DNA of 64,000 nt from a virus, in IMG/VR virus record IMGVR_UViG_3300010883_000007, positions 40,453-104,452 of that record; one strand, written 5' to 3'. A model generated the notes under the pieces. That model had not been told where the DNA came from. It saw only the letters and a list, made by a program, of their open reading frames with translations, and searched no databases. Positions 353 to 47,561 of the stretch are shown one piece after another (position 1 is the stretch's first letter; each line of letters begins with the position of its first letter). Both the position numbers and the translations under genes were made by a program.

Positions 353-649
353 TCACTTTACTAAATATGACGGATGATCACTGAGATCTCGTCGTCGGTT
401 GATAATTTCTTTCTCAGAGGGTCGCCAGCCAGTATTCCATCGACCCATATTGGGCTGGACGAAGTGCAACTCACAGTCCCGGCAGCACTCAACCCTATAA
501 TATGCCCTTACGTCATCTGTATCTCTCAATGCTAACTCACACACAGGACAATCAAGGGGTACCCAATCGGTGTCTGCGTCGGCCTCGGCGATAAGAAACC
601 CCTGATCGTGAACTCTGGTCCTTGACTCACTCACAGATAACCACAGCAT
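353..649 (-). CDS. Small zinc-ribbon protein of unknown function
   Basis: A protein of 98 residues with two Cys pairs: CPVC near residue 34, and a CCRDC cluster about 20 residues further on. This is the spacing of a zinc ribbon or rubredoxin-like knuckle. The ATG at 649 is chosen because GGGAG lies just upstream with proper spacing; it overlaps the end of the SbcD-SbcC gene by 23 bases, which suggests translational coupling. A GTG inside the overlap lacks a comparable ribosome binding site. The residues around the Cys pairs are polar with many Arg and Asp, and there is no membrane segment. Such proteins often touch nucleic acid or RNA polymerase, but nothing here shows a specific role. Placement beside recombination and replication genes suggests DNA metabolism (inference). 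Confidence 0.65.
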   Translation of the reverse strand: MLWLSVSESRTRVHDQGFLIAEADADTDWVPLDCPVCELALRDTDDVRAYYRVECCRDCELHFVQPNMGRWNTGWRPSEKEIINRRRDLSDHPSYLVK

Positions 650-3600
650 TCTTCTCCCGCTGGGAGATCTCAATTATATTGTCTACAGCATCCTTCACAG
701 CATCAACATGTGATATTACCAGAATGTGCTTAAACCAGCGTCGGAGAGAATCGAGCAGTCGAGTACACGCCTCAATATTCATCTCATCTAGAGCACCAAA
801 TCCCTCGTCGATGATGAGGAGATCTGTCTTGGGGAGGGAGCTAACATTAATAAGGGCTACACGGATTGCGAGGGATGCCATCATCTTCTCCATACCACTG
901 GCACACTCAATAACTCTGCGTGAGTCGCCGTAATCAATGTAGATATCCATGTCGTTCGTTCCGGCTTCAGCCTCAAGTTCCACAGTGAAGCCCACAACGC
1001 CTTGGAGAATCTTTGAGATCTCCTTATTAATCGAGGGGAGCTGAGATGCCATTATCTGAAGGGGAATGCCCTTCTTGGAAACAGCCCCCAGGAGGAGCTC
1101 GTACATCTTCCACTGTTCAACCAACTCACTGTATTTCTCCTTGTCCTTCTTATGGAGGGCCATCTCCGCGTCGAGATGGCCGATGGATTCAGTGAGCTTA
1201 ATGCGTTGCGCGTCGAAGCCGTTAATCTTGTCGTTGATCGTATCCATTTCCTGCCGGGCTGCGCTGACCTTTTGGGCCTCAGTGGATGTAGAAACCCGGA
1301 GTCGCATGCCTTGGAGTTCTCTATCTGCAGCATCGATCAGATCCTGGAGAACTTTCTTTCGATTGTTCACCCTCGTCAAGTCAAGTCGCTGGTTGGAGAG
1401 TTTCAACACAAGATTGTTCTCACGGGTCAGAATCTTATCGTACCTCTCGATCTTCTCTGTAAGATTCTCCCTCGTTAAGACCTTCAGCGACTTTCTCGAT
1501 GCTTTGACCTTGTCCAGCGACTCTGTAACTAAACGATCCTGATTATCTAGCCGCTTCTTGTTCTCGTGGGATGACTTGATGAACTTACAGGTGGGAAATG
1601 TGTCACCACACGGAACTTCTTTAAGCAACTTAATAGATTTCTTCTGGGTCTTGAGAAGCGTCTTTTCTCTCTCGTGAGTGTGACTCAGTTCTACCAAAAC
1701 ACGCTCGAGATCCTGCTGTGCGTCGCGTCGCTGTCGAAGATCGTCAATTGGAAACTGATCCTTCACTGTACCAATCGATTTCAGAGTTGACTCAATTTCC
1801 CTAATCTTTCCTAGTGAGGTCTGGGATTTGTCTTCCATCCCGTCCAACTGTGTTCTAGAGACTACAAGTCCTGATTCCTTCTGACTCACGTCGTCCTCAG
1901 TCACTAAATCTTTGTTAGAATGTGTGGCAAGAGCAACTGTGATCTCCTGAAGCTGCTTTCGATGACGACTGATATTTTCCTCAATCTCACGACGTTCCTT
2001 CGCATTCTTTCGCTTGAGTGTGTGCTTCTCAGCTATAAGTGTATCCCAGTCTCTATCTGGGACGTTTCCCAGGATACTCTTTAGCTCAGAGGAGTCCTCC
2101 TTGGCAAGATTTAGAACATCATCAAATATATTGAGATCGAGAAATTTGGTGAGAATGGCCTTTCGCTGGGTTGCCTTGTGCCTGATGAAGTTATTCATCT
2201 CTCCCTGACTTGCTAGCGATGTCATTAGAAAGTCGTCGGCAGTTCCCACAATTTGTCTAAGGGTCTTTTCTGTCTCCCGCCTCTGAGCACCGTTCATGTC
2301 GACTATCTGGTTGTCTGCCTCATCGATCTCACTCAAGTTGAGGTGAGTCACTGCATTCTCGTCTCCTCGGCGGGAGGTCTTTCGAACAGACTGCCTCTCA
2401 ACGAGGTATCGCTTTCCGTTCGCGGTGAGAAAGACTCTTCCAAGACAGTATCCCTTTCGCATATTAATAATGTGAAGGTTCTTGACGGGCCCGCGGTCTG
2501 TAGTATTGAAGAGGGAATACATCATAGTGCCAGGTATAGATGACTTCCCAGCACGATTCTTGCCAAAGAGACCGAGAATCCCGCCCAGGGCATCAAAGTT
2601 AATGATATTTCCCTTGCCGTACGAGAAAGTATTATCAAACTCCATCCTCTGTACTGACCACTTGATGTTTCGAACAACATCTGTCTTGGATGCGGGCATC
2701 ACGTATTTAGCTATCAGCCCTTCCAGTCTTTCCCACTGCTCGTCTGAGATATCTATTTCTGAGTAATATTCCCTCATCAGGCGAACATGGGTGTTAACAT
2801 CTCGGAGATCCTCTGTGAAAAAGTCGCCGGCAGCGGTCTTGATTGTGGACACGTCAATAGTATGATCATGCTTAAAGACTATCTCTGTGGCATGCTTCTG
2901 ATTCTTGAGTGCACTGTGGAGGTGCTTTATCTCTGCCTGGGAGATCTGACTGTCTGTGCGAACCCTAAACCTTGATAGATTGGGATGTGCCATGGCGCGC
3001 GAGACTGTGTCTTTTACATTTCCCGCCCAATCGATCGTGACAAATGGGCACGAGTGAGGAATCTCGTAGAAGGTGCTGGTGAATGTATCCTTATCCTCAA
3101 TCTCCCAGAAGAGAAATCCCTTGCCTGGGTCCTCACCATAATTCTGCTGAATTGTCGATCCGGGATAGGCCACTCGCTTCTCATCGTCCAGATACTGCAG
3201 CTTGTGAATGTCGCCCAGGAAGGCAAAATCAAAGTCATCAAAGAATTCCAGGTCGACGTCACCCTCAATATCCCAATTAATATCGGTTGTTGATCCCTGA
3301 ACACCTCCGTGGAAGGTGGCTATATTAATCTCACCTGGGACTGGCTTCACGTCTGGCCATGTTTCCTCATCAAAACACGAGAAAACACACCAGTTATAGC
3401 CTGGAACACCAGTGGGATAAGCCCCGGAGGTCTTATAGAGGTGGAGATTGGGATTATCCAGAGCATTAATAATGGGTGATATCGCATCCTGTCGGTGCTT
3501 ATTCATTATCAGACCATCGTGGTTTCCCAAGATTATGTGGGTCGGAGCAATGTCCGCCATCTCTGAGAACCACCACGAGAGACAGTCTATTACCTCCGGC

Positions 3601-3770
3601 GAGATACCCTGTGTCTTGGAGTGAACAATGTCCCCTCCCACAAAGATGGCGTCCAGCTTCAGTTCCCTGAAGGTCTCGAACATCTGGCTGAAAGCCTCAC
3701 GATACTCATCATGTCTCGTGAGGCCTCTCCAGTGTATATCACTTAAATGGGCACACCTAAATGTCACCAT
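627..3770 (-). CDS. SbcD-SbcC (Mre11-Rad50, gp47-gp46) single-chain fusion nuclease
   Basis: A protein of 1047 residues carrying both halves of the Mre11-Rad50 complex. Residues 1-365 are a calcineurin-like phosphoesterase of the SbcD/gp47 type: D11 and H13 (SDIHW), D47 (GGDIVHS), N83-H84 (GNHDG), H154 (FHGG) and H189 (GDIHK) supply the expected metal ligands. From about residue 368 the SbcC/gp46 ATPase begins, with Walker A GKNRAGKSS at 403-411, then long coiled-coil arms. Near residue 721 lies a Cys pair (CGDTFPTC) where the zinc hook belongs, though its spacing is not the usual CxxC. The C-terminal ATPase half has an SGMEKMM signature and Walker B LLIIDEGFGALDE near residue 985. In T4 these are two genes that process DNA ends for recombination-dependent replication. 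The frame is continuous across the junction with no stop. It starts just after the primase, with GGAG before the ATG. Confidence 0.93.
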   Translation of the reverse strand: MVTFRCAHLSDIHWRGLTRHDEYREAFSQMFETFRELKLDAIFVGGDIVHSKTQGISPEVIDCLSWWFSEMADIAPTHIILGNHDGLIMNKHRQDAISPIINALDNPNLHLYKTSGAYPTGVPGYNWCVFSCFDEETWPDVKPVPGEINIATFHGGVQGSTTDINWDIEGDVDLEFFDDFDFAFLGDIHKLQYLDDEKRVAYPGSTIQQNYGEDPGKGFLFWEIEDKDTFTSTFYEIPHSCPFVTIDWAGNVKDTVSRAMAHPNLSRFRVRTDSQISQAEIKHLHSALKNQKHATEIVFKHDHTIDVSTIKTAAGDFFTEDLRDVNTHVRLMREYYSEIDISDEQWERLEGLIAKYVMPASKTDVVRNIKWSVQRMEFDNTFSYGKGNIINFDALGGILGLFGKNRAGKSSIPGTMMYSLFNTTDRGPVKNLHIINMRKGYCLGRVFLTANGKRYLVERQSVRKTSRRGDENAVTHLNLSEIDEADNQIVDMNGAQRRETEKTLRQIVGTADDFLMTSLASQGEMNNFIRHKATQRKAILTKFLDLNIFDDVLNLAKEDSSELKSILGNVPDRDWDTLIAEKHTLKRKNAKERREIEENISRHRKQLQEITVALATHSNKDLVTEDDVSQKESGLVVSRTQLDGMEDKSQTSLGKIREIESTLKSIGTVKDQFPIDDLRQRRDAQQDLERVLVELSHTHEREKTLLKTQKKSIKLLKEVPCGDTFPTCKFIKSSHENKKRLDNQDRLVTESLDKVKASRKSLKVLTRENLTEKIERYDKILTRENNLVLKLSNQRLDLTRVNNRKKVLQDLIDAADRELQGMRLRVSTSTEAQKVSAARQEMDTINDKINGFDAQRIKLTESIGHLDAEMALHKKDKEKYSELVEQWKMYELLLGAVSKKGIPLQIMASQLPSINKEISKILQGVVGFTVELEAEAGTNDMDIYIDYGDSRRVIECASGMEKMMASLAIRVALINVSSLPKTDLLIIDEGFGALDEMNIEACTRLLDSLRRWFKHILVISHVDAVKDAVDNIIEISQREKNAVVICE

Positions 3771-3775
3771 AACTC

Positions 3776-4744
3776 CTAAATAATTGAACCAGTTTTGATC
3801 CCATCAATAATCTCACACAGTCGGTGTGACGACTGCCACAACACTGCTTCCTGTCTTATCTTACTAAACTGAGCGCGGGAGAGATCCCCCACATCCAGCG
3901 CAGGGGGAAGGGCAGCTAGACGAACCCTAATCCCATATGACGATAGGACCCGGGCTAAATTGTGGGCCTTAAGTCTCGCATCAGTGTCGAGGGCTAACAC
4001 AATAGGTGTCTGATTTCTAATAATCTTTCGAAAGAGATTAGAGTCCTCCGCGAGATACGATCCCAGGAGACACGTCGCGTTGTCGTCACACTTCACCAGG
4101 TCGAGTGGTCCCTCGACAACTGTGAGCTCTTTATCCCACCTAATATTGAGCTCATTGAAGATCACCTGCTTCTTTGGGACCTTCGCATTGAGATACTTCA
4201 TGTGGGTGGTATCGTCAATTGATCGCGCTGCGTAGTAATTTAGATTCCCTTCAGCATCGAAAGATGGTATAATAGCTCTGCGCCTGAATCTTCCTTTCGT
4301 TGTTGTGCCCACCTTGTAGTACCACAAATCCCGAATGCTCATGCCGCGGCCGCGGATGTATCGGACTGTTTCCTTCACATCCGGATCTCGGCTGCTCAAG
4401 GAGTTGGCTAGAAGCACAAACCCCTGTGGGATCTCAATATCAGGCTCCTCATCCTCGATGGGGCCCACGGTTGATCGACCTCTGTCGCTCCAACCAAAAT
4501 CCTTGAGCTCCTCAACATGACTGGGTGCATACTTTCGAAAGAGGCTCGCAACCTTTCGTCCTTTAAGACCACAGACCCAACAGTGGTAACGACCATCGTC
4601 CAGCCTCACCACGAGTTTTCGCTTACTGGAACGTGCATCAGCACAATTGGGACACTTGACGGCCACATTGACCTGATCCCTGCTGATCTCCACACTACCA
4701 AAGGCACGCCGTAAGAGCGCAGCCTTACTCGAAAACAAATTCAT
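3776..4744 (-). CDS. DnaG-like DNA primase with zinc finger and TOPRIM domain
   Basis: A protein of 322 residues that would make RNA primers for lagging-strand synthesis. The N-terminus has a primase zinc ribbon with Cys at 31, 34, 55 and 58 (CPNC and CWVC). The middle holds the TOPRIM fold: the catalytic Glu is in VVEGPLDLVK near residue 209, and the metal-binding Asp pair is in LALDTDA near residue 252. The length is close to T4 gp61 (about 340) and far below bacterial DnaG (about 580), so the helicase-binding domain is missing or very short. It lies 19 bases after the resolvase gene and 5 bases before the SbcD-SbcC fusion, as expected for a replication-recombination cluster. There is no clear ribosome binding site before the ATG, so the start is the least certain part. 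Confidence 0.88.
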   Translation of the reverse strand: MNLFSSKAALLRRAFGSVEISRDQVNVAVKCPNCADARSSKRKLVVRLDDGRYHCWVCGLKGRKVASLFRKYAPSHVEELKDFGWSDRGRSTVGPIEDEEPDIEIPQGFVLLANSLSSRDPDVKETVRYIRGRGMSIRDLWYYKVGTTTKGRFRRRAIIPSFDAEGNLNYYAARSIDDTTHMKYLNAKVPKKQVIFNELNIRWDKELTVVEGPLDLVKCDDNATCLLGSYLAEDSNLFRKIIRNQTPIVLALDTDARLKAHNLARVLSSYGIRVRLAALPPALDVGDLSRAQFSKIRQEAVLWQSSHRLCEIIDGIKTGSII

Positions 4745-4763: not shown

Positions 4764-5336
4764 CTATGTATTGTTGTTCAACACGCCTGCAAAAGCCACA
4801 ACATACGCGTCTGCCATATCATAACACCCGGGCTCCAGAATCTCCTGGCCTCGTCTAGGGCCGCTCTTAAGCACTTTGAGCGGCCACTGATAATCATCAT
4901 CGAGACGATTGGAGACCCAGTCCAGGACCTGCTGCTTGGTTGTTTTCCCACAGACTGCTTCCTTCTGCAGACGGAGACCCACACTCTTTCTTGCAGAGTT
5001 CACATTAAGAAACTCAGGTCTTATCTTAAACGTCGATTCGCTCAAGTATGAGACCACACCGTTAAATCTGGCCAAGGAAGCTAAGGTCTTGGCAGATGAA
5101 AAACCCCTTCGAAAACGCTGTAGATTCTCCTCAACGAACACCCGTTCTACAGGATGTTGGCATTGCAACTCCTGGAGTACGTCTAGAACCCGCTGGGCCT
5201 TGCTGAAGGTATCTTTCCAACCACTTAGGTGTATACACCCCATTTCAACCTTAGATACGCTCTGGTGTTCATCTGTGTATAGAACACACCAGCCAGTCTT
5301 AGAGGTAGAAATATCCAGTCCCAAACAGCATAACAT
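4764..5336 (-). CDS. RuvC-like Holliday junction resolvase (RNase H fold)
   Basis: A protein of 190 residues that begins with the RuvC hallmark LGLDIS, whose Asp at about residue 8 is the first metal ligand. It continues with VFVEENL (Glu near residue 70) and ends with an acidic helix, YDMADAYVVAFA, as in RuvC-family resolvases. The predicted role is cutting branched DNA during recombination and before packaging, the task done in T4 by the unrelated endonuclease VII. The ATG at 5336 overlaps the stop of the upstream virion gene by one base (TGATG). A TTG one codon upstream is also open but less likely. The gene marks the switch from structural genes to DNA metabolism, so it is probably expressed with the late transcript unless an internal promoter exists. 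Confidence 0.82.
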   Translation of the reverse strand: MLCCLGLDISTSKTGWCVLYTDEHQSVSKVEMGCIHLSGWKDTFSKAQRVLDVLQELQCQHPVERVFVEENLQRFRRGFSSAKTLASLARFNGVVSYLSESTFKIRPEFLNVNSARKSVGLRLQKEAVCGKTTKQQVLDWVSNRLDDDYQWPLKVLKSGPRRGQEILEPGCYDMADAYVVAFAGVLNNNT

Positions 5337-8300
5337 CAATAATCGATCCTCAACCTAAAGAGATAACCATCTGAGTCCCTCTTCACAATGGGTTGGGCCA
5401 AGTTGGCCCTCCCTATTATATTAAAACTCTCATCGTGAAGATTTACACTTGTAATGTAATTAAATTGGGACGCTGTCTCATTGGCATAGTCTGTGGGCTT
5501 AAGCGCTTTAAACGTCGGATTGGAGGAGGAATTGACAGATCCCTTGGGACAGGGCACGTTTATCTCCAGAACGTGCACGTTGTGCTCGCCTTCGAAACTG
5601 GTCGTCCACTCATCAGCTCCGAAGATGGGGATGTTCGGTGTCTTCACAACAACAATACCCTCCTCGTAGATGATATTGCCCACAGCGTTCCACGTGGCGT
5701 GCTTCGATAGGGAATCTGCCCGATAGAGGCCTCCGTGTCCGTCATCCCTGAGGGTCACTGCTAAAACACCCCCAGATCCGGTTACACTAGTGTCAGTTAC
5801 CTGAAACGATCCGCGCCTAATCTGATTCCCATAAAAGAGGTTCGACACATCAAAGAATGCCACCTGATTTGAGGAGGGATCCTTCGTCCTATTCAGGATC
5901 GTCAGGATACCAGAGTTGGCTACCCCCGGATCCTCGGGTGGAGCACCCTCCAGCGAATTGGAAATGGAAACGTCGGTGTTATCCTTTCCTCCCGTGAATG
6001 CGGTCACTGTCCTATACAGGTTTGTGAGGTTGTGAGCTATAGCAGTATTCCCTATAGTCCCCACTGCCCGCTGATTGAGGGTTACCACTCCGGCGTAATC
6101 ATCGGTGTCGGTGGCATCTCTGCTGGCCAGGATTAGTCCTGCGTGTCCGGTGGATCCGTTGACAGCAGATACAAAATTGTCGTAAACAGTATCAGCATCA
6201 GAGCTGTTGGCATTGACTAACACCTTACCCCCCTGGACATCACCGGTGACAGACTCGACCTCGTACACGAACCGATAGACCTTCGTCACTCTGTCATATG
6301 TGTTTGTCACCGCGTTCTTTCGTAATCCCGTTAGACGTATAGTTGCCTGATCAGCTGTCTTGGTTGGTGTGTAGATAATCTCTGCAGAGGCAGCCTGAGT
6401 TCCTATTCCCTGCCTTCCGCGGTTCTCGCTGGTGATATCGATTAACCCCTCCGGCAGGGATGCAGTGCTTACCATGTTCGAGAGGTTGATGAGACCGTAG
6501 TCAACATTTCCAGCGTCATTGACAAATCGATCGATCAGTGAACCGGATACCGGAACTTCGGCCCGGGTGCCGGACTTGAGAAGACCGAATGATGGACTGA
6601 ACCTTCCGTTGTCACACGGAAGGACTGTGAGATTTCTCTTTCTCAGGGAAGCATTTCGGTAGAGCCACAGGTTACACAGCTCAGCCGTGTTGGTGGTCAC
6701 ATCAATTGTCGATCCTGTTAGATTGAAGAGACGGGGATAAAGACCGTTAACAAACTCTCGGGTGAAGTTTGGAAGGTTCAACATGTGACCGCCGACGCCG
6801 AATGACAGGGCAACGTTGAAGGGGTCATCTGTGGTTGATCGAACTGTCTGGAACGGCGTCTGCATCACCTCCCGCTCCTTGGTCTCCTTCACAAAGAAAG
6901 GGGGCACGTAGAAGATCAGGTCAGTCGGAAGGGGATCAGGGCCCGACTGGGCAGACAGGGCAATCTGTTGCAGAGAGTGGTAGGTATTGAATATCTTGAG
7001 ATCGTGGATCTCAGCCCTCAACGGGTGCGAGAACCTCACCTTGTGTTCTGCTATATCATTGTGTGTGGCATCCACATTGGACATGTCGTACGAGTCATTC
7101 GTGAACATGCTGGTAACGCCCTCACGGTGGGCAGCATTAGCGTTGAAGAACTGTGCCACAACTCCCGAGCCATCCAGGGTACCATTGTTGGGACCGTCGT
7201 AGAAATTACCCACAAAGACAGCGTCCGGATCACCAATCGGAGGTTCGAAAGCCTGGGGCATCACTGAAGCTGATGGTATTAAAAATGTCGCATCCTCCTT
7301 GCCGTCAATCACGAACGATCCCGTGCCGCTATTGACTGAGGCTCCCCACCGAATGGCGACATGATGCCAGTGATTCCTCATGAGCGCGTTGTCCTTCGAG
7401 AAGAACACAAGGTCGCTGGGAACTTCCTGGGTGCTACTGCCGAGAGTTGGAAAGGGCTGGCTCACATTATTAGACGTGACCGCAGTGTTCCTGGGGGATG
7501 TCTCAGCGCTGTTGCTTAGCTGCAACATTATCCTGAATCCATCAGTCTTGCCGTTAATATCCTTCGACGAGCCCGAAATCAGGCTCACTGCGTACGAGGA
7601 AGACATGTGAATGATCGTGCCCGGATGATACACTGTTCTTCCAGGCTCAGTGCCACCGGTAAATGTAGACGGAACGTTAACACTAGTACTTGCGTTCCAT
7701 GCCGCGGCGTTGTCTAGGGTAATTGCAGTATTACCCGCACTTGTTTTGACAGCACCTTGTGTGAGTAAGACTACTCCCGCAGAGGGATTTGTAGCTACTA
7801 TATCCAGGGATGATTGTGCATTAATCTTTGCAGCAAGATCTGCAGCAGTTCCCGTACCGCCGCCGCCGGCGGCAGCAATTCCACTTACAGCAATATCTCC
7901 GAGTCCCCCAGTGAAAGTTGAGGGGACATTTACACTGCACACGCTGTTCCAGTGAGCAGCGTCATTTACAGTGATTGTAGTATTACCACTTCTACCAGTA
8001 GTTGAACCTTGGGTAATGGTTATTGCAGCAGTAGATGCTGATGCTGTCATATCTAGCGCAGACTGAGCATTAATCTTTGCAGCAAGATCTGCAGCGGTTC
8101 CTGTGGCGCCGCCACCTGCAGCATAGATTCCGTTGAGTGCAATATTGCCTGCAGAGACACCGTTGTTCTCGTTATCAACTTCAAACGTAACTGAGGTTCC
8201 ATCACCATCAATCAAATTGATTGTACTGCCTTCGTTAGGTTTGTCAGTTAGCGTAAAGGTGGCTGCTGGTGGTTTAAGACCATTATTCTCGTTGTCTATT

Positions 8301-22048: not shown

Positions 22049-25000
22049 CTACTCAAATGTCAGCATAACACTGGTTCCTGAGGCGTCGTCAGGGTTAGTC
22101 GATCGATCCCGGGTTAGTCCATCAAAATACGGAAGTGAGGAGGTGCAGAAAACATCTAAGTTCTGACTGTGTGTGGATTCCGGATCTACGTTAACAGCTC
22201 GAGCGCCCTCATCGTCGGGTCGAGAAGTGAATGTTACACTAACAGGACCTGACTCTACACCGTCTTCAGTAAAGAAGCGAGTAAATCTACGGGCCTCGAG
22301 GAGATCTCTCACTTGACCGAACTTATTGTGGCGATACACAGCAGAAGAGTACATGGGTCGAATATTGGCCACTCCATACTTGAAACCTCTCAATATAACT
22401 TCAGATCCAACACCTATGTGCATACCCCCAGTCACATGGGTCGAAATATCGCGGTTAACCGCTGTCTGGACTGTTGTATAGCCCACGGGTTCTTTAGTTT
22501 TCTCCCTCTCGCTATACCAATAACGATAGTTGTTGTTAGCGGTGTTCCACGTGTAAGAACCCACTGGAGGAGCAATATAAGACTTACCATTGTGGGTGCC
22601 ACCGTCGCGCTGCGCTAGGTACTGGTCGATGTAGTAGACAAATTTGGAGTCCGACGAGTGCGGATACCCCCACGTGATCTGGACAGTAGTTACTGTTGAT
22701 ACACCGGATCTCACAAAGGATCCTGAGACAGGAATGGTCGCATTGCGATCCACAAGAATCCTCTGCCACTCAGTTCCGTCTCCCAGTAACCCTCCGCCAG
22801 TGAAGGATGTTGCTGTAATATTAGTCACAGTCGATGTGATTGTCGTGTTACTCTGACTACCCCCAACCTTCTGAGTTAGGGACATAGAGCCTTCTCCGTT
22901 GGCTGAGGGAGCTGTCCCCACAGCAATTACAGAGTCTGCGGTGTTGGCATTGTGCCCGTTGGTGTGATTGATTGCAGTCTTTAGCAGGGTTAAATAATCT
23001 CCCTGGTCCATGGCGCCAAGATCTGTTCTTATTGCAATACCTCCCACAGCAGCATCACCCTCAGATAGGGTGAATCCGTCGCCGAAGTCACCCACTGCAA
23101 GAACATCTCCTGTTACTATTGAGTTACCCTTTCCACTTGGTCCGATGCCAATAAGCACATACTTCTTTGTTACTCCAGCAGACGAGGTGATAGTGACTGT
23201 CTGTAGCTCGTTTGCAGACGTAAATGAGTTGAGATCGCCGTCTGCACAACCCAGGGATCCGGCTGCCCTGGAGCTATTGGGATGATCAGATGAGATCGTC
23301 ATTTGAGTGTCTGAGGAGATTGCAGTGACTATTGCAAATGTGCTTGATCCCAGCTCGCCGTACTGACTATGCGTAAAGTTAGATGCAGTAATATTCTGTG
23401 CATTAGCATCGACGGTAATAGCTGTGTTCATGGATCCTGAGGCGCCGGCGACCTGCTGATACAGCGCAAGTGTGTCTGTACCGGCGATGGCGTAAATATT
23501 AGAGACTCCATGCCCGTTGGCAGAATCTATACACGTCTTGAGCGAGGCAACTGCTGTCGCAAGACCAGATGCATTATTGAACACAAGAGGAGCGCTATTA
23601 TCAGACCAGATTGTCGCAGTTAAGTTAGTCACATCGTCGGGGGGTATAAAACCAGAACCTCCAGTGCCGACGGTCGCTTGGGCTAGTGTCATCGTGTTGC
23701 CTGATATCGAACAGGTAATCTTGGGGTTGTGGCCATTCTCGTGGTCAATGGCAGTCTTTAGCTGGGTTAAATAATCCCCCTGTGTAGACAGACCACCGCC
23801 CGTCAGGTTAATTGCAACAGCAACTCCACCTATGGCCAGATCATCATTTCCATAGCCTGATACTAACTTGTTACTTCCATAATCAGACCCTGCTGCCAAC
23901 ACATCACCGGTGGCCACCGAGGTTGCCGCGTCATCCACTAATACATACCGCTTGGACGTGCCATCAGTTGAGACAAGTGTAATTGCCTGAAGTTCAGACA
24001 TACCTGATGCTGCAGCTGCATTCGTAACTGTCACATCACATGAAGCCACTGTTGTTGAGCCAGTGCCGGCGGGAGAGAGGTTCTCGGCAGTACCTGCCCT
24101 ATAGTACTTTACTGTTGCCGCTGTATCGATGATGGCTATCGTGTCACCGGTAATAGGGCCAACTCCTCCAAACTGAATTGCGGCAGAAGATCTGGGTCCG
24201 TGTGTGCCAGTGCCCCCTTCTGGAGGGTTCGATCCACTCAACGCGATACGATCTCCTACCTTTATCTCTTTGGTAAACTTTGTGTTGATCCCAATAATCG
24301 TATCTGATTGATTGGTACTTGTGTGACCCTTAACGTGTATGGGTTCTGCATTCTTGTGTTGAAAGGTCTTAAATGCGGGCATACCAAAAAAGCCATCGCC
24401 AAAACCATAGTATAAGGAGTTGAGCATGGTTATCCCATCTATCTCATTAAATGTGAGATCACCGCCTCGTGGCCCTATTAGAGCGAGACCTGCGTGAGAG
24501 ACTGACTCTGTCACAGAGGATGAGAGTTCAGAGTATATGGGTCGACTTCGGCCGTCGCCTAAGCTGGCCACTGGAGCACCGCGCTGCCCGTCCACATCAG
24601 TCATGTCAATATCTTTAGTTCTCAAGAGATAGGACTGTAACCCTAACGAGCTCAGGAAAGTCTTAGAGCCTGAGATTGCTATGTGACTTATGGCGCCGGC
24701 GCGTATCACTTTACCCGTAGAGCCTGTGACCACATTAAAGGTTTTGTTACCCTTCCGCTCTGCCGCTAGACGTTTCACCTTCGAGTACTTTGGCTCAAAG
24801 GGAAATGAGAATGGAAGATCCCTGTCAAATATTTTATTCGGGCCGTCAATTGACGATCGAGGCTCAGATATTACTAAAACGTTAGCTTTGGGATCTAGCA
24901 TTCCCGCGTTGGGTGTTAAGCTAAGGCCAAAAGATATCTCTGTGCCTGCGTCATCAAAGAACTTTGAGTCGACAATGGCCTCGACTTTGAGACTCCTACC

Positions 25001-28000
25001 ATCAAATAGGGAGTCATTGTTGATGTCTAATATACCAGCAATTGATGGAAGCAGGGTATCATAGTATCGCTCCCGGTGGTCGACCAACTTGAGGCCACGA
25101 AGGAAAGAACCGGTAACGCCTGCTGTTCCCTCAGACACCCTTCCAATCACCTTTCGGTGCACACCCTTATTCTCAAGGAGATAAGACTCACTTCCGGATG
25201 TGGGAAGGGAACCTGTCATCATGTGACCAGCAATCACATTTTCCAGATAAGAACCCGAGTAGGCAAAGGATGGCTCTGTGTCATACTGATCATACACGTC
25301 TGTGCCCAGAAGAAGCGTCTCGTGTATTGCCTCAGAAGTCAGGGGCTGATTACTTGACGGTGTAATCTCCTGATCGCCTCGAAGCACAGATCCATACAAC
25401 ACTAACTTTCCAGCCCCAGGGTGCAACTCGAATGCTGGAGCGGCCAAATCTCCGGCGTAATTCAGCGGAGACTGGAATCCAAAGACTAACTTATCTCCCG
25501 GCATTAACATGTAGGGGGAGGTCACTCTGTCTGTTTTTGGCGCCTCTAGTCTGAACGTGTCTTGGTAGGCATCTACACTATACGCACGCTCGAATCCGCT
25601 AAACTCTCCGCCTCGAATGGCGCGTCCCGTGGGTATACCCAGACCGTTACGAGAGCCATTGATGAACCTGATAAGCAACGAGTCGTTGTCAGTGTCAGGT
25701 GTGGTGTCATTGAGTCCGGGGATTTCTATGTAATTCCCGCCCAGATCCCATGCTGAAGATCCTGGAGCTAATGCGGGAGCCCGAACTGGGGCAGCAAGTG
25801 TTAGTCGCTGGTGGGCCCAGGGAGAGGCAGTGTCAACAACAAGATCACAAAATGATCGAAGGTCTTCAACATACTTCTCAAACACTGTGGGATCATTCAC
25901 ATTTTTATCGGTGGTGAAGGTTCCTATCGTGGAAAATGTGACCAGGTCCCTTACAGTTCCCACCTCATCGTACTTGACAGGAATAATCTTTCGAATGGTC
26001 TGGGCTGTGTTGTCACCTATTCCTCCTGCGTCGCGGCCATCGGCAAAAGTGTTGAAGAGTCTGTTACTATAGAAGTCTGTTCCGTGTACAGAGGCAGCTG
26101 TTAGCCCGTTAGTCACTTGTCTGTTTCCCGAGGATCCATCTGCCAGCTGTGTCAACCTGAGAATGCCGCCGGCTCGACTTACAAGAAGCTTCCCATAGTG
26201 ACCGCTGTCGTTCTCAATACACTTCTGAAGTTGTAGAGCGATCTGGGCCGAGGTTCCTGTGCATGCAAACTCCATCTTAGAATGTGCAAAATTCGTATTA
26301 TTAGCTGCATAATACACTTTGGTTGTGTTGTCTGTCGACGTCAGTGTGACTGTCTCGCCGACAACAGGAACTTGGGCGTTGGTGTGTGACAGCTGTGAAA
26401 TATAACTCGAGGTAATAGACACTGCTGTTGTGTGTGCTTCCCCCGGTGTTAGGATTATTAGCTGGGCCCCGTTCGCCTGGGCCGGCACATCGCTCACCAG
26501 AAGCTTTCCGTTGTGACCGTTGGCATGCTCGATGGCAGCCTTGAGCTGGACCAGGAAGGCATTCTGTGTTGCTGGGGTTCCCGTTAAATCAATAGTCACA
26601 GCGGTACCGGATTGACTGGCGGTGGAGCCTCCCCCCACATCTGTTACACCACTGGTCACCACATCGCCGGTTGCGACTGCCGATGTGGCATCGTCCACGA
26701 TAATATAACTTTTGTTAATGCCGGCGGCTGAGATGTAGACACGCTCGTTTTTGGTCATTCCGCTAACTGCATCACCATCTACTACTGTTAGTGTGCTAGT
26801 CCCAAAAGTTATTACAGTTTTAGCCTGAGTCGCTTTGTCAGCGACGATAATCTCTGCATCGTTATTGATTCTTGTTACCCGAGCAGGCCTAGAGAGAAGG
26901 TTCCCCATTAGCTGTATGCTGTCACCCACCCTAAGCTCACTGGTGAACTTTGTTCCCGTTCCGGCAACCACCATTGATCCGGACACAGTCTTCGCAGCAG
27001 TTCCGGTTATGGTGTCATAGTCATACCCCTCACCAGAGCCATAGGCAGAGGAGTGTGGTGAAAGCTGCCACACAGTGGGTATTGTTCCGGAATATGGCAT
27101 CTCAATAGTTTCTTTTCCGGCGCCGGCTTCAGGGTGTTGGTCCCCCAATTTTGTTAAAACTGCTCGATTCTCAATTCCTGGATCTATATTTGCCGGTCTT
27201 TGGTTTAGAATGAAAAATGATATCCCCTCGCCGTACTTGGCCGAGGGTGTAGAGGTTTGTTTGTCCTTGAGTGATGCTGAGAACTCGTACACTATCTTCT
27301 CGACCAAAAACGGCCGGTCGATCAAACTAGATACATCAAAGACCTGTGATCCAGTGGCCGCGAACTTCGGGTGAAAGGGAAAGCCGAATGTATTAGTTGG
27401 CTGAGCGAACCCTGTCTCAATGGGTACCTTCTTGCCCTCAGACTTGAACCCCGGGGCGGAGGCATTGGCGGTGGACGAGGCCTCGGCAAGCTGCCAATGA
27501 CTTTGACCAAACCCAACCATCACAGTGTCTAACAGATTTCTTAATCGTGCACGATCCTCAGAGAGACCACCTCGTTGAGATTCGGGTATATGAGTATCCG
27601 GCTCCGGCCATGGCTTGTGTGAACCTACCCTCTCCCACTTCTTCTCATCAAAGTTGAAGTACACCATTGGGCCGGAGTCGGTCTGCCCCCCAGACTGTGC
27701 GTTCTTTGCAGTGTATTTTAATGATGTGGATAGAATTTTTGTCGAGGGCGTCAGGTCGATCTCTAGCCTGTGCTTGTCCCACAGTGGGGCAGATAGACCC
27801 GGGCCCACTATCGTTGGGTCAGATCCCGTCGAGTAGAAGGATCCACGAAGGGAGGGGTCTACAGTAAAGTTCGAATCCCATGTTAGGTCCGGATCATCAC
27901 CCTTCTTCGACCCAGAAACACGGTCAGAAGACATCACCGGTGTGTGACCAAACTGTGCAAAGAGATTAACCTCCCGATACGGCTCTAAATTCTGGGGATT

Positions 28001-31000
28001 TTCGCTTTTTCTGCGAGGATCATACGAGCTCCTGTGGGATCGTCCCGGTCCAAAGAGAGTAGTTGTGGTGTTGGGTGTTGAGAACGGTATACCGGTGTGA
28101 CCCCGGGGAAGGTTAAATGGAAAGTGGAGACCGTCTGTTGATCCCGTTAGAATTCCGAAGCTTCCACCACTGAAACCCAACGACTCCTTCCCAGGATCCC
28201 TTATAAGGTCCCCTCGGCCTCCCTCGATTCCCACCACACCTGGATCCAACTGTCTCCACTTGTGAGACCTTTGACCCACCTCGATCGTTCCGGTGACATT
28301 AGTCATAACGATTCGAGTGTTGCCCGAGGTTCCAGGTCGCATCTGAGTCAGATTGACTGTCTTATTCTGTGTCTCTGCATATATTCCCAGCGTGCCTGTC
28401 AGTTCGTTCACCTTCCTGGCAAACTCGGCCGCGGTCTGCTGGGGGGAGGAATACAGCAGGACGGGCACCTGGCTTGGCTTTCCACCTCTAAATTTGTGCG
28501 AGTAGATGGTACCGTAGACGTCTCTGTTTGATCCCAGCGAACCATCTGGGTGAGTAAAGTTAATCACGGTGTTACCGTAGTCACCAAACACATCCAGTGT
28601 TACCTGAGTTAGGCTGACGTTAGCGCGGGCTGCTGAGGCTGCTATCTTGCCAGCATGACCGGCGGCGGCGTTGATACATGCTATCAAGCTAGTGGCCAGG
28701 GCAGTTCTGGTTGCGCCGGCGAAAGTGGACCCTGTAGTTAACAATTGGGAGGAGGACTTTGTGTACGTCCGGCCAGTCCCATCAGTTGAGAAAATTGTAA
28801 TCGTCGTGTTATTATCGGGCACACTGCGAAAGAAGATTCGACCAAACGCGAGGCTCGCACTACGTACTGAGAGCTCGTACTTTGAATTCGCGACGAGGAC
28901 GAACTCTTTCACCCCTGCCGGAGAGGCATCAAGGCCCTGTGAGCCTGTTAGGGCCAATCTTCCCCATGCCATTCCTCGTTTGCTCTGGAGGAATTTTATA
29001 TTGGCTGTCGCGTAGCCAGAGAGAAACTCTGGAGTGTCACTGTCATCAAATGATGTGGTATACCTTCCTGTGAATCCTCGGGAGGTTACCAAGCGTGATG
29101 TTGTGGGATAAGCTCCGAGCTGATTGTCCCTATCTCTAATCTCCACACGCGGGGGGAGGCCGATAAAGCCTGACTGCTTCTTATACTGGCGGACACCCTT
29201 GAGTCCGGCGTAGTAGAGGGCACGTACGTCCTCAGTACTGAGCTGCTTGGACCACACAGCAGGCTCGAACATCTCACCGTTGAGAGAATCAGAATTAGAC
29301 GAGCCATCTCCTCGAAGATGGCCCAGGATGAAGTCTAACCCCTGGTTGGTGCCTCCCACAAAATTAGCTGCAGTGGCGTTCGTCGCGTTATCGGTTATTG
29401 TTTTGTTCCCGGTCGGGCCTGGTACCGCCTGGGTTAGGGTCAGTTTTCCGGCACCATCGTTGTGGACGTGTATCTTTACACTGCCTCCAGTAAAATTAGC
29501 CACAGTTACATTGGTGGCATCGCCTGTAACTACGGTGTTTCCACTGCTGCCAGCCACTGACTGGGTTAGTGTGATCGCCTGATTGCCGTCGGCCTGGGAC
29601 GGAACAGATCCCACCGCAATCTTGCCGTTGTGGCCGGCTGCGTGCTCAATTGCGGCCTTGAGCTGGACCAGATACGCATTCTGTGTGTGCGCTGGCAGAT
29701 TGATTGCAACAGCAATTCCGCCGATGGCTGTGTGACCTGCTGCAAGAGTGCTAGCGCCGTAGTCAGATCCCGCCGCTAGCACAACACCTGTTGCCACCGA
29801 TGTTGCGTCCGCGTCCACCAGAACGTACTTCCTGAGTGTCCCATCAGCTGAGGTTATTGTGATCGTCTGCAGCGCCGACATGCCTGATGCTGCGTCCCCG
29901 TCTGTGACTGTTACAGTGGTCGAAGCTTTGATCCCGTGACCGTTGGCTGTTTCGATGCACGCCTTGAGAGAGGTTGCGGCGGCCGCGAGGGTGGCTCCGT
30001 AAAACTTGGGTGGATCCGTCGTGAGATCTTGGGCTGTGGCAGTGGTGTTTGCGTAATATACTTTTGTTGTTCCGTCTGTCGAGATAATTGTGATTGTTCC
30101 GGCGTTGGCAGGCACACCCGTAAAAGTTATAGTGCCCTGGGCACCGTGTGCCGCAGACATTAGAGTGGGAGAGGGCGTTGTGTAGTCAGGTGTTACACCC
30201 GTGCCGCCGGCAATTAGGGAATTATACCTGCCCTCCTGGCCTGCAGTCTTGGTGTATCGATCACCGTTGATGTATATCTTGACTCCGGAGCCTGCGTATG
30301 ATGTTCCGGTGGCGCTGTAGTTATTGACACCGTTCTTCCAGCAGTCAGCAAGAAGGTCAGTTCCTGAAGATCCATCGTAGGTGACTGCAACATGCACCCA
30401 ATCACCTGTTGGGATCTGGGCAGAAACATCATCTGTATAAAATAGAAGTGCCTGTGTAGATAGCGGTCCACTTCGAAGCTCAAACTTAAGGCCAAGCGAG
30501 GAATAATAGAACTTATGACCTGCGGTCTCGCCGGCGGCGATCCCGGCGACACCGGCTACCACGGGAGGCGACAGCCCGAATATACCAAAAGTTGTATCTG
30601 TTGTCTTCAGCCACACCGCAAAGGAGAAGGGTCCGTCAACCACCTTGTGAGGATCCTTACCCGTATCGACAAAGTGAAAGTCCTTGTGGGCCGCGGCACT
30701 GATGTACGAGTCTGAAGATGTGAACCGGCCGGCAAGGACGGGCGGATCAGACTCAACGTGGGATCCGGAGTGGGGTGACACCCGAACATCGTGGCCTGGA
30801 CGTGTGCCCGAGGCAAAGGTTAAGCCGGGGACAGATGTGCTGGTGGGATCGCTGTTGCCTCCCGTGAAGGACGTTGCTGTTACACCGGTGAGACCCACAG
30901 TGACAGTGGTATTACCACTGTGTCCCAGTGTTACCTGAGTCAGGGTTAGTACCCCACTTCCGTTGTCGACCACAGTAATCTTACCATTGTGGCCGCCGGA

Positions 31001-31462
31001 GGCATCTTCTATACATGCCTTAAGCGAGGTGGCAGCGAGTGCTGCAGTGGCCCCATGAAATGTACAGGGATCAGCGCCCAGGTCCTGGGCGGCCGCCTTA
31101 GGATAAATCTTGGTGGTACCGTCAGTGGAGATGATCGTGATTGTCTGCGTGTTGGTTGGCACTCCGGCGAAGGTCACAGTAGCAGTGGCCGCAGCTTGGG
31201 CCCAGGTGTCGAATCCGTGGTGGGGATCGAGTCCACTGTAGGACGCGTGGTGTCCATTTCCGGAGAGATCCCTAATACTTCCACTGCTCATGGGAAGGAA
31301 GGGATCAGAGTGCTTTGTGAATCTCCAGTGTGCAACCAACGAGTCGGCTGCTGTGTAGTGCAGCCGGCCCACGTGAGTGCCACCCGTCATCCCCGCAGAG
31401 ACCTGAAAGTTGGTGTCAAAGCGGGCCCCTGTGATCTTCTTACTTAACTTAACTTTAGCCAT
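22049..31462 (-). CDS. Giant 3137-residue virion protein, LamG-like core invaded by nested FTGG modules
   Basis: The longest gene in the window. It begins with a LamG-like jelly roll: LVAHWRF near residue 43, DLSGNGHHA, PFSFAVWLK, WVHVAVTYDG, VKIYING and GEMFEPAVWSKQLSTEDV. These strands are spread over residues 40 to about 760, because one FTGG module (30858-31192) and one nested pair (29352-30140) interrupt the fold. Another module lies at about 28558-28850, another nested pair at 26045-26820, a third nested pair at 23364-24190 and a single copy at 22795-23265. Between them are virion domains (for example VFDVSSLIDRPFLVEKI) and a smaller twice-used motif (GTKFTSELRVGDSIQL and NTKFTKEIKVGDRIAL), the second interrupted by a module. 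It is probably a long tail or baseplate appendage. No chain-cleaving or enzymatic motif was seen. It starts 3 bases after the 1051-residue gene, which carries the same modules. Confidence 0.85.
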   Translation of the reverse strand: MAKVKLSKKITGARFDTNFQVSAGMTGGTHVGRLHYTAADSLVAHWRFTKHSDPFLPMSSGSIRDLSGNGHHASYSGLDPHHGFDTWAQAAATATVTFAGVPTNTQTITIISTDGTTKIYPKAAAQDLGADPCTFHGATAALAATSLKACIEDASGGHNGKITVVDNGSGVLTLTQVTLGHSGNTTVTVGLTGVTATSFTGGNSDPTSTSVPGLTFASGTRPGHDVRVSPHSGSHVESDPPVLAGRFTSSDSYISAAAHKDFHFVDTGKDPHKVVDGPFSFAVWLKTTDTTFGIFGLSPPVVAGVAGIAAGETAGHKFYYSSLGLKFELRSGPLSTQALLFYTDDVSAQIPTGDWVHVAVTYDGSSGTDLLADCWKNGVNNYSATGTSYAGSGVKIYINGDRYTKTAGQEGRYNSLIAGGTGVTPDYTTPSPTLMSAAHGAQGTITFTGVPANAGTITIISTDGTTKVYYANTTATAQDLTTDPPKFYGATLAAAATSLKACIETANGHGIKASTTVTVTDGDAASGMSALQTITITSADGTLRKYVLVDADATSVATGVVLAAGSDYGASTLAAGHTAIGGIAVAINLPAHTQNAYLVQLKAAIEHAAGHNGKIAVGSVPSQADGNQAITLTQSVAGSSGNTVVTGDATNVTVANFTGGSVKIHVHNDGAGKLTLTQAVPGPTGNKTITDNATNATAANFVGGTNQGLDFILGHLRGDGSSNSDSLNGEMFEPAVWSKQLSTEDVRALYYAGLKGVRQYKKQSGFIGLPPRVEIRDRDNQLGAYPTTSRLVTSRGFTGRYTTSFDDSDTPEFLSGYATANIKFLQSKRGMAWGRLALTGSQGLDASPAGVKEFVLVANSKYELSVRSASLAFGRIFFRSVPDNNTTITIFSTDGTGRTYTKSSSQLLTTGSTFAGATRTALATSLIACINAAAGHAGKIAASAARANVSLTQVTLDVFGDYGNTVINFTHPDGSLGSNRDVYGTIYSHKFRGGKPSQVPVLLYSSPQQTAAEFARKVNELTGTLGIYAETQNKTVNLTQMRPGTSGNTRIVMTNVTGTIEVGQRSHKWRQLDPGVVGIEGGRGDLIRDPGKESLGFSGGSFGILTGSTDGLHFPFNLPRGHTGIPFSTPNTTTTLFGPGRSHRSSYDPRRKSENPQNLEPYREVNLFAQFGHTPVMSSDRVSGSKKGDDPDLTWDSNFTVDPSLRGSFYSTGSDPTIVGPGLSAPLWDKHRLEIDLTPSTKILSTSLKYTAKNAQSGGQTDSGPMVYFNFDEKKWERVGSHKPWPEPDTHIPESQRGGLSEDRARLRNLLDTVMVGFGQSHWQLAEASSTANASAPGFKSEGKKVPIETGFAQPTNTFGFPFHPKFAATGSQVFDVSSLIDRPFLVEKIVYEFSASLKDKQTSTPSAKYGEGISFFILNQRPANIDPGIENRAVLTKLGDQHPEAGAGKETIEMPYSGTIPTVWQLSPHSSAYGSGEGYDYDTITGTAAKTVSGSMVVAGTGTKFTSELRVGDSIQLMGNLLSRPARVTRINNDAEIIVADKATQAKTVITFGTSTLTVVDGDAVSGMTKNERVYISAAGINKSYIIVDDATSAVATGDVVTSGVTDVGGGSTASQSGTAVTIDLTGTPATQNAFLVQLKAAIEHANGHNGKLLVSDVPAQANGAQLIILTPGEAHTTAVSITSSYISQLSHTNAQVPVVGETVTLTSTDNTTKVYYAANNTNFAHSKMEFACTGTSAQIALQLQKCIENDSGHYGKLLVSRAGGILRLTQLADGSSGNRQVTNGLTAASVHGTDFYSNRLFNTFADGRDAGGIGDNTAQTIRKIIPVKYDEVGTVRDLVTFSTIGTFTTDKNVNDPTVFEKYVEDLRSFCDLVVDTASPWAHQRLTLAAPVRAPALAPGSSAWDLGGNYIEIPGLNDTTPDTDNDSLLIRFINGSRNGLGIPTGRAIRGGEFSGFERAYSVDAYQDTFRLEAPKTDRVTSPYMLMPGDKLVFGFQSPLNYAGDLAAPAFELHPGAGKLVLYGSVLRGDQEITPSSNQPLTSEAIHETLLLGTDVYDQYDTEPSFAYSGSYLENVIAGHMMTGSLPTSGSESYLLENKGVHRKVIGRVSEGTAGVTGSFLRGLKLVDHRERYYDTLLPSIAGILDINNDSLFDGRSLKVEAIVDSKFFDDAGTEISFGLSLTPNAGMLDPKANVLVISEPRSSIDGPNKIFDRDLPFSFPFEPKYSKVKRLAAERKGNKTFNVVTGSTGKVIRAGAISHIAISGSKTFLSSLGLQSYLLRTKDIDMTDVDGQRGAPVASLGDGRSRPIYSELSSSVTESVSHAGLALIGPRGGDLTFNEIDGITMLNSLYYGFGDGFFGMPAFKTFQHKNAEPIHVKGHTSTNQSDTIIGINTKFTKEIKVGDRIALSGSNPPEGGTGTHGPRSSAAIQFGGVGPITGDTIAIIDTAATVKYYRAGTAENLSPAGTGSTTVASCDVTVTNAAAASGMSELQAITLVSTDGTSKRYVLVDDAATSVATGDVLAAGSDYGSNKLVSGYGNDDLAIGGVAVAINLTGGGLSTQGDYLTQLKTAIDHENGHNPKITCSISGNTMTLAQATVGTGGSGFIPPDDVTNLTATIWSDNSAPLVFNNASGLATAVASLKTCIDSANGHGVSNIYAIAGTDTLALYQQVAGASGSMNTAITVDANAQNITASNFTHSQYGELGSSTFAIVTAISSDTQMTISSDHPNSSRAAGSLGCADGDLNSFTSANELQTVTITSSAGVTKKYVLIGIGPSGKGNSIVTGDVLAVGDFGDGFTLSEGDAAVGGIAIRTDLGAMDQGDYLTLLKTAINHTNGHNANTADSVIAVGTAPSANGEGSMSLTQKVGGSQSNTTITSTVTNITATSFTGGGLLGDGTEWQRILVDRNATIPVSGSFVRSGVSTVTTVQITWGYPHSSDSKFVYYIDQYLAQRDGGTHNGKSYIAPPVGSYTWNTANNNYRYWYSEREKTKEPVGYTTVQTAVNRDISTHVTGGMHIGVGSEVILRGFKYGVANIRPMYSSAVYRHNKFGQVRDLLEARRFTRFFTEDGVESGPVSVTFTSRPDDEGARAVNVDPESTHSQNLDVFCTSSLPYFDGLTRDRSTNPDDASGTSVMLTFE
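22795..23265 (-). repeat. FTGG module, type B
   Basis: Boundaries approximate. It contains the type B sequence of features: ELQTVTITSSAGVTKKYVLI, VTGDVLAVGDFG, AVGGIAI, a helix YLTLLKTAINHTNGHN, SLTQKVGG, NTTITSTVTNITATSFTGG. It follows a short Asp/Ser-rich linker after the second KFT-VGD motif of the giant protein. Confidence 0.65.
23364..24190 (-). repeat. Nested FTGG modules: type B inside type A
   Basis: The outer type A module begins SAAIQFGGVGPITGDTIAI at about 24190, is interrupted after STTVAS at about 24040, and resumes near 23600 with LATAVASLKTCIDSANGHG to the degenerate end ASNFTHSQ at 23364. The intervening type B copy begins TVTNAAAASGMSELQ. The whole insert splits the second KFT-VGD motif: VGDRIALSGSNPPE before it and AIVTAISSDTQMTIS after it, compared with an uninterrupted copy at about 26840-26950. 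Confidence 0.65.
26045..26820 (-). repeat. Nested FTGG modules: type B near the start of type A
   Basis: An outer strand KTVITFG at about 26820 is followed at once by a type B copy (VVDGDAVSGM through LIILTPGEAHTTAVSIT). The type A body then resumes at about 26370 (NAQVPVVGETVTLTS) and runs to NGLTAASVHG at about 26080. The outer ends have drifted (no FTGG), which suggests an older event than the copies at 29-31 kb. Confidence 0.55.
28558..28850 (-). repeat. FTGG-family module, degenerate type A
   Basis: RIFFRSVPDNNTTITIFSTDGTGRTY, then ALATSLIACINAAAGHAGKIA, VSLTQ and GNTVINF. The closing FTGG is lost. It lies between LASVRSASLAFG-like strands and a GTIYSHKFRGGKPS segment of the giant protein. 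Confidence 0.55.
29352..30140 (-). repeat. Nested FTGG modules, clearest case (type B inside type A)
   Basis: The outer type A copy starts GTITFTGVPANAGTITI at about 30140 and reaches ANGHGIKAS at about 29921. A complete type B copy then follows (TTVTVTDGDAASGM to ANFTGG at 29482). The outer copy resumes with KIHVHNDGAGKLTLTQ and ends FVGG at 29352. An intact type A copy reads straight from GHNGKI to LTLTQ, so the break is inside one structural unit. The pair itself sits between two strands of the LamG-like fold (VKIYINGDRYT before, LNGEMFEPAVW after). Confidence 0.75.
30858..31192 (-). repeat. FTGG module, type A, inside LamG-like fold
   Basis: ATATVTFAGVPTNTQTITI to ATSFTGG, about 112 residues, the cleanest single type A copy. 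It separates DLSGNGHHASYSG from GLTFASGTRPG and the later FSFAVWLK strand of the same LamG-like domain, so it occupies a surface loop of the host fold. Confidence 0.72.
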
Positions 31463-46060: not shown

Positions 46061-46382
46061 TTATGATCTCCTCGAAATCTGATCCGGTTTCTTCGACGGC
46101 CTCTTCGTCCACGGCTGCTAGAGTTCTTGCTATCAAGAGAATCTCATCTCGGCACACCCGGACATCCTGTAGGACTGTCCTAATCTCATTACTATCGTAA
46201 TACAAGGGAATCTGGAGTATCTTACCAATTGATTTATAACGATCATCAAGCACATCCAGTGACCCCTCTATGGCATCTTGCACTGCTAGAATGATAAGAC
46301 CAAACCTAATTGCATAGAAACACGTCACCCCTAGAAGCACTAGTAGTCCAATAATTATGTATGTACTAATATCAAGCATCAT
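46053..46382 (-). CDS. Small membrane-anchored protein, unknown function
   Basis: A protein of 109 residues with one N-terminal membrane helix (YIIIGLLVLLGVTCFYAIRFGLIILAV, residues about 8-34), then a helical soluble part with many Asp, Glu and Arg (DVLDDRYKSIGKILQIP; RTVLQDVRVCRDEILLIARTLAAV) and an acidic tail. It overlaps both neighbours, glycosyltransferase stop by 4 bases (ATGA) and sigma gene start by 8, so it is clearly part of one transcript. I do not know the family. A possible role at the host membrane (for example host takeover or lysis timing) is conjecture. Confidence 0.65.
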   Translation of the reverse strand: MMLDISTYIIIGLLVLLGVTCFYAIRFGLIILAVQDAIEGSLDVLDDRYKSIGKILQIPLYYDSNEIRTVLQDVRVCRDEILLIARTLAAVDEEAVEETGSDFEEIISG

Positions 46383-47560: not shown

Positions 47561-47561
47561 C

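Follow-up and report, generated by a model that had tools for sequence, protein, structure and literature searches.

The window, a stretch of 64,000 nucleotides of viral DNA that corresponds to positions 40453-104452 of an IMG/VR virus record of 104,452 bases, raises the question of whether one reading frame can hold both partners of the Mre11-Rad50 (SbcD-SbcC) complex as a single, intact chain and, if so, whether such a chain is new. The frame lies on the minus strand at 627-3770, begins with an ATG at 3770, ends with a stop codon at 627-629 and encodes 1047 amino acids with no stop inside; it is also uninterrupted in its own 104-kb virus record. The features of the locus are listed below, with residue numbers of the fusion protein.

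627..3770, minus strand: fused Mre11 (SbcD)-Rad50 (SbcC) gene, 1047 aa (frame, family matches, invariant residues, AlphaFold2)
3036..3770, minus strand: Mre11 calcineurin-like nuclease domain, residues 1-245, with D11, H13, D47, H50, N83, H84, H154, D187 and H189 (Metallophos, invariant residues, SbcD fold match)
2799..3035, minus strand: Mre11 capping region, residues 246-324, of low confidence at 303-318 (AlphaFold2; PDB fold match to SbcD, S. aureus SbcD nuclease-plus-cap)
2688..2798, minus strand: presumed Rad50-binding helix-loop-helix, residues 325-361, helices 325-335 and 343-361 (model helices; alignment to the T4 gp47 C-terminus)
2664..2687, minus strand: linker of 8 residues, 362-369, from the Mre11 end to the Rad50 start (T4 alignment, AlphaFold2; purifying selection)
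2133..2663, minus strand: Rad50 N-terminal ATPase lobe, residues 370-546, with Walker A GKNRAGKSS 403-411 at window 2538-2564 (Pfam, alignment, AlphaFold2)
1617..2132, minus strand: ascending coiled coil, residues 547-718 (AlphaFold2)
1578..1616, minus strand: coiled-coil apex, residues 719-731, CX6C with C721 and C728 (VPCGDTFPTCKFI), candidate variant zinc hook (AlphaFold2 loop between long helices; relatives)
1080..1577, minus strand: descending coiled coil, residues 732-897 (AlphaFold2)
630..1079, minus strand: Rad50 C-terminal ATPase lobe, residues 898-1047, with signature SGMEK 958-962, Walker B LLIIDE 984-989, D-loop and H1021 (Pfam, phmmer, alignment)
353..628, minus strand: small conserved ORF of ~91 aa with a CPVC motif, directly downstream of the fusion (92 of 94 loci)
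3776..4744, minus strand: DNA primase (phrog_47), conserved neighbour (PHROGs; near the fusion in 84 of 94 loci)
4764..5339, minus strand: RuvC-like Holliday junction resolvase (phrog_159), conserved neighbour (PHROGs; 76 of 94 loci)

The frame had been read from its letters as SbcD followed by SbcC with no stop between them, and this was borne out by the open reading frame, Pfam and PHROGs. The Pfam search of the fusion protein returned Metallophos at residues 5-190 (E 2e-10), together with SMC_N at 374-1040 and SbcC_Walker_B at 951-1007, both of the latter under the curated cut-offs. In PHROGs, the SbcD-like phrog_100 matched residues 3-360 (E 6e-31) and the SbcC-like phrog_77 matched residues 270-1044 (E 1e-56), and a phmmer search of the PDB with the fusion protein recovered SbcC, Rad50 and Mre11 chains. 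The structure search of the PDB matched the nuclease domain to the fold of E. coli SbcD and the protein as a whole also to SbcCD heads and to Rad50 of archaea, bacteria and eukaryotes.

The residues that the sequence-only reading assigned to the nuclease (D11, H13, D47, N83, H84, H154 and H189) were correctly named, all of them being invariant in an alignment of 54 sequences. The phosphoesterase motifs DxH, GDxx(D/H), GNHD/E, H and G(H/D)xH are present without exception, as D11/H13, D47/H50, N83/H84/D85, H154 and D187/H189, and are likewise invariant (n = 54). The nuclease domain is followed by the capping domain and C-terminal helix-loop-helix that characterize Mre11/SbcD (AlphaFold2 and gp47 alignment), the latter with a predicted role in Rad50 binding. 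The same reading placed a split ATPase in the second half, with Walker A at 403-411 and Walker B near 985, and was equally accurate there: G408, K409 and S410 of Walker A and D988/E989 of Walker B are invariant in the alignment (n = 54). As in Rad50/SbcC, the split ABC ATPase (Walker A, signature and Walker B) is arranged around a long antiparallel coiled coil.

An AlphaFold2 model computed from the 54-row alignment (mean pLDDT 85, pTM 0.48) gave the domain order nuclease, cap, helix-loop-helix 325-361, linker of eight residues, Rad50 N-lobe, coiled coil and C-lobe. Alignment to split phage proteins placed the end of T4 gp47 in the helix-loop-helix and the start of gp46 at the first Rad50 strand, which coincide exactly with the join, and the fusion therefore consists of two complete proteins joined together. 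The suggestion that the nuclease sits at the base of the ATPase head agrees with this predicted anatomy of a helix-loop-helix and short linker, and contact between the nuclease and the base of the coiled coil is plausible from the model, in which the relative placement of nuclease and ATPase is uncertain because the pTM is only 0.48.

The same single-chain fusion was present in each of 13 IMG/VR contigs with 46-91% identity, and an alignment-guided scan found many more. In the clade of the window, 90 full-length relatives (71 at 90% non-redundancy) read through the junction, and a sister clade, searched with the nuclease half alone, yielded 67 full-length fusions through the junction and zero Mre11-only genes. 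Compared with the closest relative, L004 (91% identical), the whole gene had a dN of 0.047, a dS of 1.10 and a dN/dS of about 0.04, with a dN/dS of 0.017 at the helix-loop-helix and linker. Two loci, L319 and L231, have the gene broken by stops or frameshifts into several frames in a row and are either pseudogenes or poorly assembled.

Two separate genes are the arrangement in T4 and most characterised phages, and a sequencing or assembly error that deleted the stop between two adjacent genes would give a frame of this kind. The chance of this is practically negligible, since about 160 contigs have the same unbroken junction with purifying selection across it, and the record of a cultured phage, Microcystis phage Mel-JY01, is fused too. 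An undetected frameshift near base 2670, which had been considered a possible flaw, is excluded in the same way, by about 160 uninterrupted relatives and a dN/dS of 0.04 across the gene, and the frame is intact there. Another alternative is a specialised role of the fused protein in defence or counter-defence in place of that of main recombination nuclease. PADLOC reported weak matches to the MADS components mad3 (638-1044) and mad8 (394-579); these seem to reflect a general resemblance among ABC/SMC proteins, Rad50-like ATPases of diverse types show matches to each other, and membership in a defence system was rejected. The fusion is, moreover, the only Mre11/Rad50 copy found in the record and adjoins primase and RuvC genes in most relatives, which makes a defence role highly unlikely. 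The 104-kb record fragment was searched for a separate SbcC or SbcD gene and gave none; a second phrog_77 match in the record was rejected as a separate SbcC because it is a weak match to the middle of the profile. The gene is very probably a single-chain version of the phage Mre11-Rad50 (gp47-gp46, SbcDC) complex.

The gene order is RuvC-like resolvase, primase, fusion and small conserved ORF, the last of which (353..628) had zero matches in Pfam or PHROGs. In 76-94 of 94 loci, the fusion is accompanied by these neighbours and by terminase and portal genes. The remainder of the record encodes a DNA polymerase, major head protein, portal, protease, terminase, tail sheath and baseplate genes, and the presence of head, portal, terminase, sheath and baseplate genes in the same record assigns it to a contractile-tailed (myovirus-like) phage. 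Elsewhere in the window, positions 58747-60387 strongly match a Nol-like carbamoyltransferase (phrog_1601), which together with glycosyltransferases at 46379-48815 probably forms a phage sugar-modification cluster, and a 3137-aa open frame lies amid probable tail genes at 22049-31462. One relative of the fusion is located on a 108,871-base contig of a Halobacteriovorax MAG, a binning that says little on the host.

The fusion had been put forward as unusual. Its identity stood, on family matches and anatomy, but its novelty did not: such fusions are widespread, as the many IMG/VR contigs attest, and well documented, Mre11/Rad50 fusions having been reported in Mimivirus (R555), Bacillus phage 0305phi8-36, plasmids, bacteria and eukaryotes (Yoshida, Claverie and Ogata 2011; PMC3175470). 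The same authors noted the geometry of helix-loop-helix and linker, for which they proposed 9-12 residues, and made the case that homologues of R555 are plentiful in aquatic viruses, which may be phages and which they named as the main home of such proteins; their paper contains no discussion of hooks (PMC3175470). The window protein is one chain with an Mre11-like N-terminus, a Rad50-like C-terminus and a helix-loop-helix plus short linker at the join; it is a fusion of the R555 kind, described in 2011, and as a fusion it is ordinary. It shares with R555 the domain order and also the unusual active-site substitutions GDxxH and D (here D187) for the first His of GHxH, but is about 300 aa shorter, occurs in a myovirus-like phage and has a CX6C hook. 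A Foldseek search of viral models (BFVD) returned Tupanvirus, Harvfovirus, Yasminevirus and other giant-virus fusions first, followed by Tenacibaculum and Listeria phages. In a tree with thin split sampling, long branches and R555 left out, 14 fused rows were separated from five split phage pairs (100/100), which, within those limits of sampling and branch length, is consistent with an old fusion.

The split systems contain the same enzyme parts. In T4, the enzyme is encoded by two genes, with 46.1 and 46.2 between them, whereas the window has a single frame; gp46 has a CPTC hook and 560 aa versus about 678 for the Rad50 part here, with very low sequence identity. E. coli SbcCD shares the SbcD fold and the Rad50 head fold, and is made of two chains with a longer coiled coil and a CXXC hook. 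Mel-JY01 (WWT39521.1) and the L099-like sister clade have an uninterrupted fusion with 27-28% identity to that of the window but differ in having a CXXC hook. The Mel-JY01 gene (L001, 3947-7144) is labelled 'AAA domain containing protein'; it is actually a full Mre11-Rad50 fusion, the nuclease half of which was missed.

Unusual in the window protein and its clade is the apex of the coiled coil, where the CXXC zinc hook of Rad50/SbcC is replaced by CX6C, and the Rad50 half was therefore assigned as 'Rad50-like with variant hook'. The consensus VPCGDxFPxCKFI is present in 70 of 71 non-redundant members of the clade, the 71st having a longer cysteine-containing loop. In the sister fusions, CXXC occurs in 66 of 67 full frames, with one 5'-truncated frame as the exception, and CXXC is also found in T4, Mel-JY01 and huge-phage relatives. 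On a tree of the heads only, the CX6C label changed once. The Pfam zinc-hook model had no match in the window and none in the CXXC fusions either, so that its failure is weak counter-evidence; a tblastn search of phages with the hook region also gave no match.

The CX6C tip might not be a zinc hook at all, with cysteines that are structural or bind another ligand and coiled coils that are joined otherwise. It departs from a pattern that a 2026 study of T4 called absolutely conserved in Rad50 (PMC13402864), and the hook work in PMC9569753 concerns CXXC only. However, the motif is located exactly at the coiled-coil apex of the AlphaFold2 model, and both cysteines are kept in those 70 of 71 non-redundant relatives, with divergence of the coiled coil on either side, which leaves a non-hook role rather unlikely. 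A split phage Rad50 has a similar VPCxD..PxC form: in the SbcC of Moorella phage MTATph1 (L105, 3495-5627), the hook-like sequence is VPCNDKLKPSC, a CX7C instead of a CXXC, so that related hook variants exist outside fusions. Judged from these sequence comparisons, the two-cysteine CX6C tip probably takes the place of the CXXC zinc hook and tethers partners, and would do so by binding zinc.

A hook-motif scan and a follow-up scan also uncovered relatives outside the window in which the fused gene has been split again. About 30 contigs of a related CX6C clade have a break within the nuclease part, immediately after the active-site GDIH, and its position, flanked by GDIHxxQxLxYRE and KKPWIAYPGS (residues ~195/197), does not vary. 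ORF 1 carries an added, conserved tail, VELEIDExDLxKYPGAEVI, and ORF 2 an added head, MSKKIRIRT; both are missing from uninterrupted relatives, and the start of the second ORF often overlaps the stop of the first (ATGA, GTGA or TTGA). These loci comprise L198, L214, L218, L249/L312, L264/L313, L306/L325, L273, L336 and about 25 more in L312-L391. In L273, L336 and L002, the gap holds a zinc-finger endonuclease ORF that matches homing or HNH endonuclease PHROGs. L002 (LR756508.1, 2944-7169) belongs to the CXXC sister clade and comes from an uncultured phage of 484 kb. Its break is at the same site, and its gap ORF (3665-4582) is a zinc-finger/TnsA-like endonuclease gene and apparently an independent insertion. 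In L355, positions 2831-2980 between the half genes appear to be an internally deleted endonuclease remnant. On a tree of non-redundant rows and references, from which L373 was left out as a 5'-cut contig, 31 confirmed split and 33 fused loci of one scan required seven label changes, a number that can be inflated by homing and recombination. For L002, a group I intron was rejected, as there was no Rfam match and the gap is occupied by the endonuclease ORF. A split intein was rejected for the re-split relatives as well: their tails, inspected by eye, are too short and do not have the expected Cys start or His-Asn end.

By its sequence pattern, the re-splitting looks like gene fission driven by homing endonucleases. 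In NrdA of phage Aeh1, insertion-derived tails reportedly help fragments of this sort to assemble. The resemblance to the Aeh1 nrdA gene-in-pieces with its mobE insertion (PMC2988022) lies in the interruption of a critical domain and in the endonuclease gene present at that point, whereas the enzyme is a different one and the re-split is absent from the window itself. Neither a variant Rad50 hook nor a phage Mre11-Rad50 gene in pieces was found reported in the open-access literature, a scope that leaves most subscription papers outside. A broader proposal, to which we give somewhat less than an even chance, is that the environmental-phage fusions use a redesigned CX6C zinc hook and have a recurrent homing-endonuclease target after GDIH, and that the halves persist and reassemble via insertion-borne tails, so that the enzyme would exist in three forms, a single chain, a pair of Mre11 and Rad50, and a pair of half-Mre11 and half-Mre11-Rad50.

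As to function, the fusion would be a Mn2+/ATP-dependent DNA-end nuclease with both nuclease and ATPase activity. Two chains would most likely pair, each with one nuclease and one split ABC ATPase, and ATP would draw the heads together around a DNA end. Hydrolysis would then open the heads, and the nuclease, held at the coiled-coil base by the helix-loop-helix and the linker of about eight residues, could trim the end or cut hairpins. The product would be 3' ends for recombination-dependent replication, and the enzyme may help in dismantling DNA, as do gp46/gp47 of T4; dimerisation, nuclease polarity and the role in infection are all presumed in this scheme. The idea that a fusion fixes the ratio of the partners at one to one is weak, because the canonical Mre11-Rad50 complex is already a 2:2 complex and because relatives re-split the chain inside the nuclease.

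Large groups of environmental tailed phages have the single-chain Mre11-Rad50 as a standard form, and it is no oddity; structural studies can draw on a wealth of compact, naturally fused versions of a complex that otherwise has to be put together from two proteins. A specialist might not expect the hook variant or the re-split relatives, both of them results at the level of sequence. The CX6C apex is a test case for whether CXXC, the zinc hook called 'absolutely conserved', can be replaced. The re-split relatives would amount to a natural and widespread example of an enzyme severed within its active domain, and deletion of their tails offers a way to test whether these drive reassembly.
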